This document shows positions 2,489-37,554 of a stretch of 63,102 nucleotides of DNA, in pieces. A model generated the notes under the pieces. That model did not search any database and was not told the origin of the DNA. It saw only the letters and a list, made by a program, of their open reading frames with translations. A program made the position numbers and the translations under genes. Numbering within the stretch: the first letter of the stretch is position 1; each line of letters opens with the position of its first letter. The DNA is from Paracoccaceae bacterium (GTDB lineage: Bacteria; Pseudomonadota; Alphaproteobacteria; Rhodobacterales; Rhodobacteraceae). The stretch lies in contig JAIXSA010000160.1 of the NCBI GenBank assembly GCA_027484915.1, positions 1 to 63,102 on the forward strand, in the 5' to 3' direction.

Positions 2489-2941
2489 ATGTCGGTTGCG
2501 TCCTATTTGAAGAAGCACAGCGAAGCCTTGGTGAAGGACGTAGGCATCGAGGCGGCTTGCGAGATCACGGGGAAGTCGAAGGCTACGCTCGGGCGCTACT
2601 ATTCAGACAACGACGAGCACGAAGACCGTTTCATGCCCCTTGACGTCGTGGCGGCGCTGGAGGCTTCCAGCCGGTTTCCGCATGTCACGGCGGCGCTGGC
2701 AGACCTGCGCGGGATCACGCTGTCCTATGACGGCGAGAAGCGGAACGCGACCTCGTCCGGGGTGAACCAGGACGTGGTCGCGTTGGCGCAGCGGTTCGGG
2801 ATGCTGATGGCGGAATACAATCAGGCCATCGGGGACGGCAAGATTTCCGTCAACGAGGCCAAGCGGCTTCTGCGCGAGACGCTGGCGATCCAGCAGGTGC
2901 TGCTGGAGATGAAGCTGAACCTGGAAGAAGAGGCGGGGTGA
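2489..2941 (+). CDS. Hypothetical small protein, possible HTH regulator
   Basis: The product has 150 residues from the ATG at 2489, which was preferred over an in-frame GTG 12 bp upstream. The N-terminal half (about 5-45) contains EAACEITGKSKATLGRYYSD, which reads like a helix-turn-helix of the kind seen in phage-type regulators, followed by a second helical part ending in an acidic coiled region (EMKLNLEEEAG). I do not recognise a named family. It probably binds DNA, but partner and target are unknown. It is convergent with the DEAD-box helicase gene across a hairpin at 2943-2963. Confidence 0.75.
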   Translation: MSVASYLKKHSEALVKDVGIEAACEITGKSKATLGRYYSDNDEHEDRFMPLDVVAALEASSRFPHVTAALADLRGITLSYDGEKRNATSSGVNQDVVALAQRFGMLMAEYNQAIGDGKISVNEAKRLLRETLAIQQVLLEMKLNLEEEAG

Positions 2942-2942
2942 G

Positions 2943-2963
2943 GGGGTCGGACCAACCGACCCC
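2943..2963. terminator. GC-rich hairpin between convergent genes
   Basis: A perfect 8-bp stem (GGGGTCGG/CCGACCCC) with a 5-nt loop lies immediately after the stop of the 2489 gene and before the 3' end of the helicase gene. It could end transcription from both sides. There is no strong T-run. Confidence 0.5.
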
Positions 2964-2975
2964 GCCAATCCCCTG

Positions 2976-4334
2976 CTAGCGCGCGTCGCGGCGCGGGGCG
3001 AAGGTGCCGCCCTGCGGTTTTGCGGGACGCTGGCCCGTCGGTTTGCCCTGACCGCCCGGACGACCCTGACCTGCAGGCTTGGCCGACCCGCCGGGGCGCT
3101 GGCCTTGCGGCTTGGCCGTCAGCTTCTGTCCTTGCCGTCCGCCGTTGCCGGGGCGCTGGCCACGGTTCTGTCCAGGCTTCGGTGCTGCGGCCACGATATC
3201 CGCAGCCCAGGGCGCGCCACCCACGACGGGAAGCGGGGCCTTCAGCATCTTTTCGATCGCCTGCAGCTCTCCCATCTCGGCCGGGGCGCAGAAGCTGATC
3301 GAGGACCCGTTGGCCCCCGCCCGCGCGGTGCGGCCGATGCGGTGGACATAGTTTTCCGGCACGTTCGGCAGGTCGAAGTTGTAGACGTGGCGCACGGTCG
3401 GGATGTCGATCCCGCGCGCGGCGACGTCGGTGGCGACCAGAACGTCAAGCTCGCCATTGCGGAACTCGGTCAGGGTGCGGTCGCGCTGGTTCTGGCTTTT
3501 GTTGCCGTGGATCGAGCCGACCTTGAAGCCCCAGACCGCCAGAAGCTTCGAGAGCTTTTCCGAGCCGTGCTTGGTGCGACCGAAGACCAGAGCCTGCTCG
3601 CCCGGGTGTTTCTTGAGGTACTCTTCCAGCACGCGGGCCTTGTCGCCGTTCGGGATGAAGTGGACGCCCTGGCTGATCCGTTCGACCGGCTTGCCGGGGG
3701 GGGCGACCTGGACCTTGATCGGATCGCGCAGGTAGGTGTCGGCGATTTCCGAGATGTCCTTGGGCATCGTGGCGCTGAACAGAAGCGTCTGGCGCTTCAG
3801 CGGAATGTGCTTGGCGATCTTCCGCAGGGAATGGATGAACCCCATGTCCAGCATGTGGTCGGCTTCGTCCAGAACCAGATAGCCGCACTTTTCAAGGCTG
3901 ACGTCACCGCGTTCCAGAAGGTCGATCAGGCGGCCCGGTGTCGCCACCAGCACGTCCGTGCCCTTGGACAACGCCTGGGCCTGTTTGAACAGCGAGGCAC
4001 CACCGACGACCATCGTGATCTTGACGGCAGTGCCCTTGGTGAAGACCTCGAAGTTGTCCTTGATCTGGCCGATCAGCTCACGCGTTGGCGCAAGGATCAG
4101 CGCGCGGACGTTCTTCGGCCCCGGCGGGTGGCCGAGGTCCAGAAGCCGGTGGAGGAGCGGCAGGCCGAAGGCGGCGGTCTTGCCGGTGCCGGTCTGGGCA
4201 AGGCCCATCAGGTCGCGGCCCTGCATGATGTGCGGGATGGCCTGCGCCTGGATCGGCGTCGGCGTCTTCAGCGTGGTCTTTTCCAGCGCCTTAAGGATTT
4301 TCGGCGAAAGGCCGAGGTCGGCAAAAGTGGTCAT
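2976..4334 (-). CDS. DEAD-box ATP-dependent RNA helicase (RhlE-like)
   Basis: This 452-residue protein has the full DEAD-box core: Q motif (TPTPIQAQ, 24-31), Walker A AQTGTGKT (46-53), PTREL (83-87), DEAD (156-159), SAT (187-189) and the HRIGRTARAG motif of the second RecA domain. These enzymes unwind short RNA duplexes in ribosome assembly, RNA decay or cold adaptation. The last ~75 residues form a low-complexity basic tail rich in Gly, Gln, Pro, Lys and Arg, as usual for RhlE-type members. The ATG at 4334 begins MTTFADLGLS, the expected start of the Q-motif region. Confidence 0.95.
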   Translation of the reverse strand: MTTFADLGLSPKILKALEKTTLKTPTPIQAQAIPHIMQGRDLMGLAQTGTGKTAAFGLPLLHRLLDLGHPPGPKNVRALILAPTRELIGQIKDNFEVFTKGTAVKITMVVGGASLFKQAQALSKGTDVLVATPGRLIDLLERGDVSLEKCGYLVLDEADHMLDMGFIHSLRKIAKHIPLKRQTLLFSATMPKDISEIADTYLRDPIKVQVAPPGKPVERISQGVHFIPNGDKARVLEEYLKKHPGEQALVFGRTKHGSEKLSKLLAVWGFKVGSIHGNKSQNQRDRTLTEFRNGELDVLVATDVAARGIDIPTVRHVYNFDLPNVPENYVHRIGRTARAGANGSSISFCAPAEMGELQAIEKMLKAPLPVVGGAPWAADIVAAAPKPGQNRGQRPGNGGRQGQKLTAKPQGQRPGGSAKPAGQGRPGGQGKPTGQRPAKPQGGTFAPRRDAR

Positions 4335-35377: not shown

Positions 35378-35407
35378 GGCCCGTGGCACCAAAGCCGCGG
35401 GCCTTTT
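35378..35407 (+). terminator. Rho-independent terminator of trpB
   Basis: A 10-bp stem with one G-T pair (GGCCCGTGGC/GCCGCGGGCC), a 6-nt loop and TTTT lies 25 bp after the trpB stop. Confidence 0.88.
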
Positions 35408-35469
35408 CCATTTGCCGAGTCGCCCCGCCAAAGCAGTCTGCGCGATCGTCGGCCCCGGGATACAAGCGT

Positions 35470-35513
35470 GTTTGCAGGCATTTCGGCATAAACCCCGGTT
35501 TATGGCTGCAAAC
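35470..35513. promoter_or_regulatory. Nested inverted repeats upstream of the poly-Asp gene
   Basis: An 18-bp palindrome, CATAAACC-CC-GGTTTATG (35487-35504), is flanked by an outer pair GTTTGCA (35470-35476) and TGCAAAC (35507-35513). It lies about 150 bp before the start of the first PepSY/poly-Asp gene and after the trpB terminator, so it most likely controls the downstream locus. The binding protein is unknown; the membrane LuxR-type protein encoded at 36637 is a natural candidate. Confidence 0.5.
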
Positions 35514-35650
35514 CGGTGGCCTAGGACGCTCTCTGTAAACCGCTGTGCAATGGTAAGCCCGCTTCGGATGCGGCCTGATCCTCCCATGCTCTCGACGGTG
35601 GTCATGCGGCCCCTGGACGAGCTGGAACCGCAACCGAGGAGATCAACCTG

Positions 35651-36094
35651 ATGACGCTGAGAAGCAAACTCCTGACCTACACCGCCGTCCTTGCCCTGTC
35701 GGCAGGGGCCGCCTTCGCCGCGATCGATGGCAATCAGCTGGCCGATGACTACCTGGCCGCGGGTTACACATTCGTTGAGGTCAAGGTCGGTCCGACCCAA
35801 ACGAAGGTCGAGGCGATCAAGGATGGCACCAAGGTCGAGGTCATCTACGACAACGAGACCGGCTCGATCATCAATCAGGAAGAAGAGGCGGCGGATGCCG
35901 AAGACGCCGCTCGCACCGGCAAGGACGTGAAGATCGTCGACAAGGACTTCGACGACGGCGACGATGACGATGACGATGATGACGACGGCGATGACGACGA
36001 TGACGACGACGACGACGATGATGACGATGACGACGACGACGATGATGACGACGATGATGACGACGATGATGACGACGATGATGACGACAACTGA
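35651..36094 (+). CDS. Exported PepSY-like protein with long poly-aspartate tail
   Basis: The 147-residue protein has a signal peptide (about 1-23, ending AFA) and a core (25-98) that reads like a PepSY-type domain: LADDYLAAGYTFVEVKVGP, then TKVEVIYDNETGSII. From residue 101 it is almost pure aspartate: two Asp, Gly, nine Asp, Gly, 33 Asp in a row and a final Asn. Net charge is extremely negative, which suggests binding of calcium or another cation at the cell surface; this is inference. The tail is encoded by mixed GAT/GAC with a 12-bp repeat at 36041-36088. A second such gene follows 89 bp later. Confidence 0.85.
   Translation: MTLRSKLLTYTAVLALSAGAAFAAIDGNQLADDYLAAGYTFVEVKVGPTQTKVEAIKDGTKVEVIYDNETGSIINQEEEAADAEDAARTGKDVKIVDKDFDDGDDDDDDDDDGDDDDDDDDDDDDDDDDDDDDDDDDDDDDDDDDDN
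36041..36088 (+). repeat. 12-bp tandem repeat in the poly-Asp coding tract
   Basis: The unit GATGATGACGAC is repeated four times without error, encoding 16 aspartates. It lies within a longer GAY-only stretch. Such a repeat can gain or lose units by slippage without breaking the frame. Confidence 0.85.
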
Positions 36095-36183
36095 GGTCGC
36101 TTCCTGACCTCTGGTTCGGGCCCCGGTCTTGCCGGGGCCCGAGGTATGTCGCATACTTGGTTTGAACCTGGGTGGGATATGAC

Positions 36184-36603
36184 ATGAAACGCCGGGCGTT
36201 TCTTTACGGGCTGGCGGTAGGGCTCGCGGTGGCAAGTCCCGTGCTCGCCAACTCATTTGTGGACGACATCGTCGCACAACTGAAGCGGCAGGGCTTCAGC
36301 GAGGTCATGACGGAACGCACCCTCCTGGGCCGCGTCCGGATCGTCGCGTCACGCGATGACGGAACGCGAGAAATCATCGTGAACCCGCGGACGGGAGAGA
36401 TTCTGCGCGATCTCTGGGCGTCCAAATCCGGTGCGAACGGGATGATCGACATCATCGAAGAGACACCTGGCGGAGATGGCAAGGATCACGACGACGATGA
36501 TGACGATGATGACGACGACGATGATGATGACAACAGCGGGAAGGGCAGCGGCAGCAGTGGCAGTGGTGACGATGATGACGACGACGATGACGACGACGAC
36601 TGA
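36184..36603 (+). CDS. Second exported PepSY-like protein with two poly-Asp blocks
   Basis: The 139-residue product begins MKRRAFLYGL, whose RRxFL resembles a twin-arginine signal, with cleavage likely after VLA (about 22). The core (24-92) resembles that of the upstream gene: VDDIVAQLKRQGFSEV, RVRIVASRDDGTREIIVNPRTGEILRD. The tail has 14 Asp, a flexible NSGKGSGSSGSG linker and 11 terminal Asp. The start at 36184 is preferred over an in-frame ATG four codons upstream. It is probably a paralogue of its neighbour with the same kind of cation-binding role. Confidence 0.82.
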   Translation: MKRRAFLYGLAVGLAVASPVLANSFVDDIVAQLKRQGFSEVMTERTLLGRVRIVASRDDGTREIIVNPRTGEILRDLWASKSGANGMIDIIEETPGGDGKDHDDDDDDDDDDDDDDNSGKGSGSSGSGDDDDDDDDDDD

Positions 36604-36636
36604 CCCTGTGTCCGGGCAACAGTCTCGGGCGCGGGC

Positions 36637-37173
36637 GTGAGGCGGGCTGCTCCTTTCGTTGCGATCTTCGTGATCCAGGCGCTGTGCGCCTTCTTCTTCG
36701 TGTCCGACATCCTGTCCTCGTTCTTCGGTTTCCAGACCACGCCGATCAGCTGGGAAATGCGCGAGCTTCTGGAGATCGGCGCTGCGATCGGGCTGATCCT
36801 TGGAGTGGTCCTTGGCGGCCTGATGTTGCGCTGGGCGCTGCGCGAGCGGCACAAGGCACAAGAGCAGCTGCGCCGGGCCTCGGGCGCGTTCTTGGACCTT
36901 CTGCAGGAACGCTTCGCCGAATGGGGGCTGACGCCATCCGAGAAGGACGTGGCGCTGTTCGCGATCAAGGGGATGTCCACGGCCGAGATCGCGACCCTGC
37001 GTGCGACGTCCGAGGGGACCGTGAAGGCGCAGACCAATGCGATCTACCGCAAGGCGGGGGTCAGCGGGCGTTCGCAGCTGCTGTCGCTGTTCATCGAGGA
37101 CCTGATGCGCGATGACGGTGCCGTGCGGCCGATGCCGGCGTCCCAGCCGGCGGCGATGGTTTCAGCGAAGTGA
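36637..37173 (+). CDS. Membrane-anchored LuxR-type HTH regulator
   Basis: The 178-residue product (GTG start) has two membrane helices (about 6-30 and 44-66) joined by a short extracytoplasmic loop of ~14 residues, a helical linker (68-95) and a C-terminal LuxR/GerE helix-turn-helix (98-158; LTPSEKDVALFAIKGMSTAEIA, EGTVKAQTNAIYRKAGV). No receiver or ligand domain is present. Its position 33 bp after the second poly-Asp gene suggests that it regulates that pair from the membrane. The 3' end overlaps the convergent truncated haemoglobin gene by 12 bp. Confidence 0.85.
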   Translation: MRRAAPFVAIFVIQALCAFFFVSDILSSFFGFQTTPISWEMRELLEIGAAIGLILGVVLGGLMLRWALRERHKAQEQLRRASGAFLDLLQERFAEWGLTPSEKDVALFAIKGMSTAEIATLRATSEGTVKAQTNAIYRKAGVSGRSQLLSLFIEDLMRDDGAVRPMPASQPAAMVSAK

Positions 37174-37554
37174 GGGCGGCGCGCCCCGTTCGCCCTGCAT
37201 CCCGAACATGAGCCCGCGTCCGATCCGGTGCGCCAGCGTGGACCACTGCAAGGCGGTGTCCGACGGGAGTTCCAGTCGCAGAACCGAGTCGAACAGGCCC
37301 AGCCAGACGTCGAACATCCCCAGCCGGACATTTCCCGCAGCGCGGTGAACGGCGAGCGGGTTTCCGTCGTAGCTGCGTTCATGCAGGATCGCGTTGCGCC
37401 AGAAGCGGGTGATCTTCGCCTCATGCGCGGGCCAATCGGTGACATGGGTCGCAAAGACCGGACCCAGGCCGGGATGGTCGCGGACGCAGGCATAGAAGGT
37501 CGCCACGACGCGGGCGATCTGGTCTTCAGTGACGTCGAAGCGGGGCGGGATCAT
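37162..37554 (-). CDS. Group III truncated haemoglobin
   Basis: The 130-residue protein fits the group III (trHbP) pattern: VVATFYACVRDHPGLGPVF near the N-terminus, ITRFWRNAILHERSYDGNPLAVH with the proximal His, and a shortened C-terminal helix. These haem proteins bind oxygen or react with peroxide and nitric oxide; the in vivo role is mostly unclear. It starts 84 bp upstream of the DUF2237 gene's 3' end on the same strand. Confidence 0.93.
   Translation of the reverse strand: MIPPRFDVTEDQIARVVATFYACVRDHPGLGPVFATHVTDWPAHEAKITRFWRNAILHERSYDGNPLAVHRAAGNVRLGMFDVWLGLFDSVLRLELPSDTALQWSTLAHRIGRGLMFGMQGERGAPPSLR

Follow-up and report, generated by a model that had tools for sequence, protein, structure and literature searches.

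Judged by its sequence, the three-gene unit described here, which lies behind a common control site, is conserved in many purple-bacteria relatives. It consists of two adjacent genes for small PepSY-like proteins, predicted to be exported and carrying mostly acidic tails (A and B), followed by a gene for a regulator with a LuxR-type helix-turn-helix (HTH), here called R. We propose, at about an even chance, that A-B-R is a PepSY-gated, autoregulated one-component membrane switch, that is, an envelope-signalling operon with cation-dependent tails. Sequence comparison supports the unit, its conservation, its operator and the association of that operator with an R-type HTH, and the conservation of the trio together with the place of the palindrome makes the locus more than a chance arrangement. 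The unit was found in a stretch of 63,102 nucleotides from a Paracoccaceae bacterium, called the window below.

The trio and the place it occupies

The open reading frame list and the sequence place A, B and R in this order behind a palindrome (Table 1), with 89 bp between A and B and 33 bp between B and R; for B an alternative GTG start is possible at 36172. The gene trio, the nested palindrome and the aspartate runs (33 residues in A, which also has a run of 9; 14 and 11 in B) are thus present as the sequence-only reading had described them. The trio is flanked upstream by trpB and downstream by two minus-strand genes, one without Pfam match and one encoding a DUF2237 protein. The small protein encoded between the trio and DUF2237 (37162-37554, minus strand) appears globin-like by eye only, has no Pfam match and is found in 25 of 65 loci from named genomes.

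Table 1. Features of the A-B-R locus in the window
Feature	Position	Strand	Description
Intrinsic-terminator-like hairpin after trpB	35378-35403	+	with T-run; upstream of the palindrome
Nested palindrome	35470-35513		outer arms GTTTGCAG/CTGCAAAC at 35470-35477 and 35506-35513 (by eye)
Inner palindrome	35487-35504		CATAAACC-CC-GGTTTATG (by eye)
Conserved core, proposed operator	35489-35502		TAAACCCCGGTTTA, i.e. TAAAC-N4-GTTTA; conserved place before the first PepSY-like gene
Second TAAACC half-site	35536-35541	+	begins 47 bp downstream of the first base of the core
Gene A	35651-36094	+	147 aa; signal-peptide-like start, PepSY-like core at about residues 24-100, 47-residue tail with the 33-Asp run
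Gene B	36184-36603	+	139 aa from ATG 36184; RR-containing signal-peptide-like start, PepSY-like core, acidic tail
Gene B core motif	36184-36603	+	RTLLGRVRI...REIIVNPRTGEILRD
Gene R	36637-37173	+	178 aa from a GTG start; two hydrophobic spans with a conserved short loop; LuxR/GerE-type HTH at the C-terminus

In R, two hydrophobic stretches (about residues 1-34 and 40-70) are followed at residues 98-150 by an HTH of the GerE/LuxR type (PF00196, 28.6 bits against a cut-off of 23.5), which bears out the earlier description of a two-span membrane protein with a C-terminal LuxR-type HTH; no Pfam family besides GerE reaches its cut-off. The short loop is among the best-conserved parts of the protein, with G31, P36, W39, E43, E46 and I47 invariant in 10 rows. 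A search with Pfam and NCBIfam profiles found neither a kinase nor a receiver domain, and no autoinducer-binding domain matched in Pfam at E<=1. Only the two hydrophobic spans stand before the HTH, and R was rejected as a quorum-sensing LuxR protein. The best named family, NCBIfam NF047608 (LIC13292 family transcriptional regulator), matches with 63.2 bits over residues 76-159, far under its cut-off of 200 bits, and membership was rejected; a full-text literature search found no paper naming the LIC13292 family. A paralogue of R in the same genome (G000:C68:5661-6101, locus L031) differs in its recognition residues (KAHLN) and has no PepSY gene detected upstream.

A and B were compared with the Pfam families PepSY (PF03413) and PepSY_2 (PF13670). 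Both proteins of the window score below cut-off, A with 16.4 bits against PepSY_2 (cut-off 24.3) and B with 15.0 bits against PepSY (cut-off 24.0), and none of 24 relatives scored singly (18 A, 6 B) reaches a curated PepSY or PepSY_2 cut-off. At E<=0.1, PepSY_2 is nevertheless the commonest Pfam match among relatives of both the A core (38/59, best E 2e-7) and the B core (30/65, best E 7e-5), and we therefore call the proteins PepSY-like. Profile alignment (hhalign probability 98.5%, E 2.8e-15) shows that A and B are divergent homologues, both PepSY-like, and B has eleven residues invariant in 65 rows (G37, T46, L48, G49, R62, E63, G71, E72, L74, R75 and D76). The AlphaFold2 models show a helix followed by four strands in B (pLDDT >=90 for 56 of 96 residues) and the same elements with a further short helix and strand in A (pLDDT >=90 for 76 of 100). 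Foldseek searches of the PDB with these models returned no match at E<=0.001; among the weaker matches 4exr ranks first for A and second for B, and 5boi, the structure of YpeB, which we take to be a PepSY protein, stands at rank 11 for B. The PepSY-type fold assumed in the sequence-only reading is hence favoured by the confident helix-plus-sheet models and by PepSY_2 being the commonest match, and finds no counterpart among the PDB structures at that threshold; the evidence for it is suggestive without being decisive. When the PDB was searched by sequence with the profiles of A and B, the matches were weak and we judged them spurious, ribosomal protein S3 for A being an example. By eye, the A-type proteins of L118 and L151 seemingly carry two PepSY-like repeats per chain before the acidic tail.

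Conservation was followed through three sets of loci, of which the first comprises 31 (29 from the genus and 2 from other genera), the second, the family set, was picked by hand from the R matches listed for 248 family genomes, and the third comes from named genomes. Since 26 of the 31 first-set and 5 of 60 family-set loci recur among the named set, the three are not independent. An R orthologue at E <1e-50 is present in 29 of 32 genomes of the genus and missing in G002, G014 and G023. R is present in all 31 first-set loci, and upstream of it 30 have one or more PepSY-like genes and 28 two or more. A scan of the named genomes with the B core only, and thus blind to R, returned 65 Rhodobacteraceae-type loci, every one of which has R and 60 of which have a second PepSY-like gene, so that the two proteins and the regulator do occur together in related genomes, as had been supposed for a self-contained locus. 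The taxa of this set include Tabrizicola (most of the closest loci), Pseudotabrizicola, Gemmobacter, Frigidibacter, Rhodovulum and Albidovulum. The 248 family genomes (247 genera) gave a B-like match in 113, an R-like match at E<=1e-8 in 153 and a strong R match in 105; a close R is thus found in about 4 in 10 sampled genera, which makes the unit common and far from universal. Among the matches listed for these genomes, a B-like gene lies on the same strand within 2.5 kb upstream of R at 106 of the 110 strongest R places, and R is found downstream of 139 of the first 150 B matches.

Next to the named loci lie trpB (61/65) and DUF2237 (57/65), and this constancy suggests that the trio has kept one chromosomal place and, from its sequence context, looks vertically inherited. 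In a sample of 289 genomes of the class an R-like match at 1e-12 was obtained in 16, four of them family members, and in two genomes of one non-family genus (G393 and G497) an R-like gene follows the gene for an acid-tailed B homologue. One record titled Exiguobacterium profundum (L103) contains trpB and the trio as in Rhodobacteraceae, and its name looks wrong. A single open reading frame joining B and R in L067 (the same record as L137) was not used as a real fusion; the record belongs to a metagenome bin of low coverage, and a frameshift close to the first span of R probably joined the two frames.

Acidic tails and other R-like operons

The tails of A and B diverge fast in length and in letters, while their charge is mostly kept, above all in A. 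First-set tails have a median of 53 residues and 80% acidity in A (n=28) and of 45.5 residues and 60% in B (n=30), none being less than 25% acidic. The corresponding values in the family set are 72 residues and 59% for A and 65 residues and 47% for B, and tails below 25% acidity number 1 of 31 in A and 13 of 56 in B (including the odd fused frame L137); in the named set they number 2 of 60 and 7 of 64. Family B tails range from 16 to 226 residues and some are rich in Gly or Pro. Charge can persist despite altered letters, as in the Asp/Glu/Ala/Leu pattern of the L023 tail and the Asp/Arg tail of L118. Acidity of the B tails is thus not universal, which counts against a PepSY-gated switch that depends on cations. 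The 33-Asp run of the window is written in mixed codons (20 GAC and 13 GAT), with a regular codon pattern at its end. In two other genera (L033, at 2808-3734, and L034) a B-R pair follows a gene for a translational GTPase-like protein, TypA/BipA-like by eye, and the B tails are Gly-rich instead of strongly acidic.

Outside the main set we collected 54 R-like loci, whose layouts were called with profiles built from our own seeds; among them L031 and L192 are one place, and the best R in L191 is its B-linked neighbour. A PepSY-type gene lies upstream in 35 of the 54. By layout, 25 are PepSY-cytochrome b561-R, 10 are PepSY-R, one has cytochrome b561 only and 18 have neither, so that no PepSY gene was detected upstream in 19 of 54, which counts against a general PepSY-gated reading. 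Pfam checks of examples bear out the assignments: three of three small PepSY proteins pass PepSY_2 (34.5, 46.7 and 65.1 bits; cut-off 24.3) and three of three cytochromes pass the prokaryotic cytochrome b561 family PF01292 (75 to 98 bits; cut-off 30.1). The recurrent operon of a small exported PepSY protein, a cytochrome b561 and an R-like regulator was seen in L032, L035, L037-L040, L044, L046-L048, L201, L202 and others, and its composition suggests redox-linked signalling. The PepSY partners in L032 and L202 have no acidic tail. In a third layout (L203, L204, L205, L208, L211 and L216) a small PepSY gene stands directly before the R-like gene, and all six of its products end in acidic residues, some of them long stretches; acid tails thus recur with R outside the main trio.

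A palindrome placed like an operator

In sequence and position alike, the palindrome TAAAC-N4-GTTTA is conserved in the manner of an operator. In 29 of the 30 testable first-set loci its start lies 142-183 bp ahead of the first PepSY-like gene, and it occurs nowhere else in the 98 kb that those loci span. A TAAACC half-site about 47 bp downstream shows in the consensus of 28 first-set rows and, less strongly, in that of 72 family and named rows. The family set has the palindrome within 350 bp of the first detected PepSY-like gene in 25 of 56 loci, as compared to 0.02 expected from mononucleotide shuffles. The other 31 have no exact copy within that distance, and in 12 of them the site stands at a greater distance upstream, perhaps with an A that escaped detection in between. 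In the named set it is present in 52 of 65 loci. Within the genus 30 of 32 genomes contain the site, in 34 copies, 27 of which lie no more than 1.6 kb upstream of R; the two genomes that lack it, G002 and G014 (about 80% complete), also lack R, and G023 has a site near a contig end and no R orthologue. The window's own 3.8-Mb genome holds a single exact copy, which led us to reject a genome-wide regulon. The backwards control likewise occurs once, so that the count of the palindrome is unremarkable and only its place is remarkable.

The site also goes together with R. Among the 248 family genomes it is found in 87 of 105 with strong R versus 34 of 95 without R (Fisher p 9e-12), and in 18 of 48 with weak R only; the remaining 18 of the 105 strong-R genomes have no exact site. 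At the R-like loci outside the main set, 52 of which entered the comparison after removal of L192 (the duplicate of L031) and L200 (no upstream DNA), the exact site is present at 4 of 8 with KAQT or KAQS recognition residues and at 0 of 44 others (p 2.6e-4, for a KAQ[TS] class that was drawn after the table had been seen). The four are L035 and L201, both of the PepSY-cytochrome b561-R layout, one PepSY-R locus, and L197, in which no PepSY gene was detected; the other four KAQT/KAQS loci have no exact copy. Sites with one mismatch occur at L216, which fits the KAQ[TS] class, and at L193, which does not. Since the site thus also precedes two PepSY-cytochrome b561-R operons with similar recognition residues, R is likely, on these comparisons, to be the protein that binds TAAAC-N4-GTTTA. 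The earlier claim that the membrane regulator controls the pair gains from this in so far as the palindrome behaves like a conserved operator.

Other roles for the upstream region were considered and set aside. The 201-nt leader (35460-35660) folds no better than shuffled sequences (z -0.32), which speaks against an RNA leader or riboswitch, and the palindrome was rejected as terminator of trpB on account of the separate terminator-like hairpin further upstream. The window has two such hairpins against 1.0 expected from shuffles, so that this one is weak evidence taken alone.

A proposed PepSY-gated switch and its alternatives

How could a regulator of this build be informed of events outside the membrane? 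We suggest that R acts as a one-component regulator anchored in the membrane, and that its N-terminus and its HTH would be cytoplasmic while its short conserved loop would face outwards. A and B would be exported PepSY-like proteins, and B, the constant neighbour of R, would probably touch the loop or the spans of R and set its activity, much as DbfQ does with DbfS, with A perhaps joining B in gating R from outside. Through the disordered, strongly anionic tails of A and B, divalent or other polycations of the periplasm would govern the contact between B and R or the amount of free PepSY-like protein. R would bind the palindrome together with the half-site downstream and switch the A-B-R promoter, thereby joining the state of the envelope, or of the cations, and the abundance of A and B in a closed loop. 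It may do so as an activator, as the upstream place of the site suggests, or possibly as a repressor. We infer here the binding of cations by the tails, the contact between B and R and the direction of control.

Membrane-anchored one-component regulators are known from the ToxR/CadC type, in which a DNA-binding domain tethered to the inner membrane acts without phosphorylation and, in the case of ToxR, has a separate partner, ToxS. R resembles these proteins in being membrane-anchored and of one component; whereas they combine an N-terminal winged helix with a large periplasmic domain, R carries its HTH, of the LuxR type, at the C-terminus behind two spans and a short loop. The closest precedents for the PepSY side come from two-component systems, as far as the passages of PMC12714742 drawn on here describe them: the periplasmic PepSY protein DbfQ of V. 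cholerae binds DbfS at the sensory domain and biases the activity of this kinase, and in P. aeruginosa two PepSY genes (PA2659 and PA2658) lie beside BqsRS, of which only PA2658, adjoining BqsS, is predicted to bind BqsS. In these systems, as in A-B-R, one or two small exported PepSY proteins stand beside a regulator, and B adjoins the regulator in the manner of the BqsRS layout. As DbfQ, a PepSY protein beside a sensor kinase, serves as an input to that sensor (PMC12714742, same passages), B may by analogy control R, in which case control would not run solely from R to A and B. However, DbfQRS and BqsRS are pairs of kinase and response regulator, whereas A-B-R has one two-span HTH protein, and the same passages mention no acidic tails for their PepSY proteins. 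A-B-R was accordingly rejected as a DbfQRS-type two-component module, R having neither kinase nor receiver and the flanks being trpB, a gene without Pfam match and DUF2237.

UipA and LanP are PepSY proteins located outside the cytoplasm, as is predicted for the PepSY-like A and B; in the review passages drawn on, UipA is reported to bind uranium and iron (PMC8963506) and LanP to bind lanthanides (PMC12482762). Both differ in having tandem PepSY domains per chain, and those parts mention neither low-complexity tails nor a membrane LuxR-type regulator. Metal sensing is not a given in the precedents, since by the excerpts at hand the V. cholerae reporter was unchanged by Fe(II) and Fe(III) (PMC12714742) and with lanpepsy E. 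coli bound no more La or Tb (PMC11899968); this counts against the cation part of our reading.

Would A and B have to act on R at all? R, answering to membrane state or to another partner, could instead make them as periplasmic or secreted sponges for cations (Ca, Mg, Fe, trace metals) with no feedback on R, an explanation that we consider unlikely while taking it seriously. It would account for the strong negative charge of most tails (first-set medians of 80% acidic for A and 60% for B) and would fit the metal binding reported, in the parts drawn on, for UipA and LanP (PMC8963506, PMC12482762). It would not readily explain that R-like regulators also pair with the tail-free PepSY proteins of L032 and L202, which point to a signalling role of the PepSY core, nor that among ten window genes sought beside the named loci the constant ones are trpB (61/65) and DUF2237 (57/65), none being a metal transporter. 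That the tails act as polyanionic traps for cationic peptides or other stressors of positive charge while R senses envelope damage seems to us quite improbable, even though the excerpts of PMC12714742 have the DbfQRS reporter answering to LPS defects and vc_1639 (dbfS) linked to polymyxin B resistance.

We think it still more doubtful that the tails arose as neutral expansions of low complexity, the PepSY-like proteins being functional otherwise. Their great variation in length and composition (16-226 residues in family B, some rich in Gly or Pro) and the regular codon pattern at the end of the 33-Asp run, which suggests unit expansion, are what such a view would predict. Then again, acidity persists where the letters differ (L023, L118), A tails below 25% acidity are rare (1/31 in the family and 2/60 in the named set), and the small PepSY proteins directly before R-like genes are acid-ended in six of six cases. 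There is, finally, a slim chance that another regulator binds the palindrome and R acts elsewhere, as the site's presence somewhere in 34 of 95 genomes without R and in G023 might indicate. However, 27 of 34 sites in the genus lie at the trio, and outside the main set the site stands before two PepSY-cytochrome b561-R operons whose HTH residues are similar and before none of the 44 loci whose residues are different.

In the full-text literature, outside which most subscription journals lie, we found no description of a system of PepSY and membrane-anchored LuxR-type proteins, as the sequence-only reading had anticipated in knowing of no characterised system of this form. No paper there pairs PepSY with aspartate-rich; PepSY and LuxR together match only a paper on iron limitation in Pseudomonas fluorescens; and among the matches listed for roseobacter genera none mentions PepSY. 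PepSY-tuned regulation as such is already known, and A-B-R is possibly a class of its own. We put forward tentatively, and with slightly less than even confidence, that PepSY-gated membrane LuxR regulators form an undescribed one-component transmembrane class with at least three layouts, namely the acid-tailed PepSY-like pair with R, PepSY-cytochrome b561-R, and the small acid-ended PepSY directly before R, in which a periplasmic PepSY protein would replace the sensor domain and the polyaspartate tails would serve as a cation gauge in the trpB-linked form.

Many genera of an environmental family share the trio, its trpB neighbourhood and its control site. If the proposed switch is real, it would explain how a regulator that has no sensor domain receives a signal from outside the membrane, would link PepSY, a domain that is widespread but poorly understood, with a second regulator class, and would give very long polyaspartate tracts a testable role.
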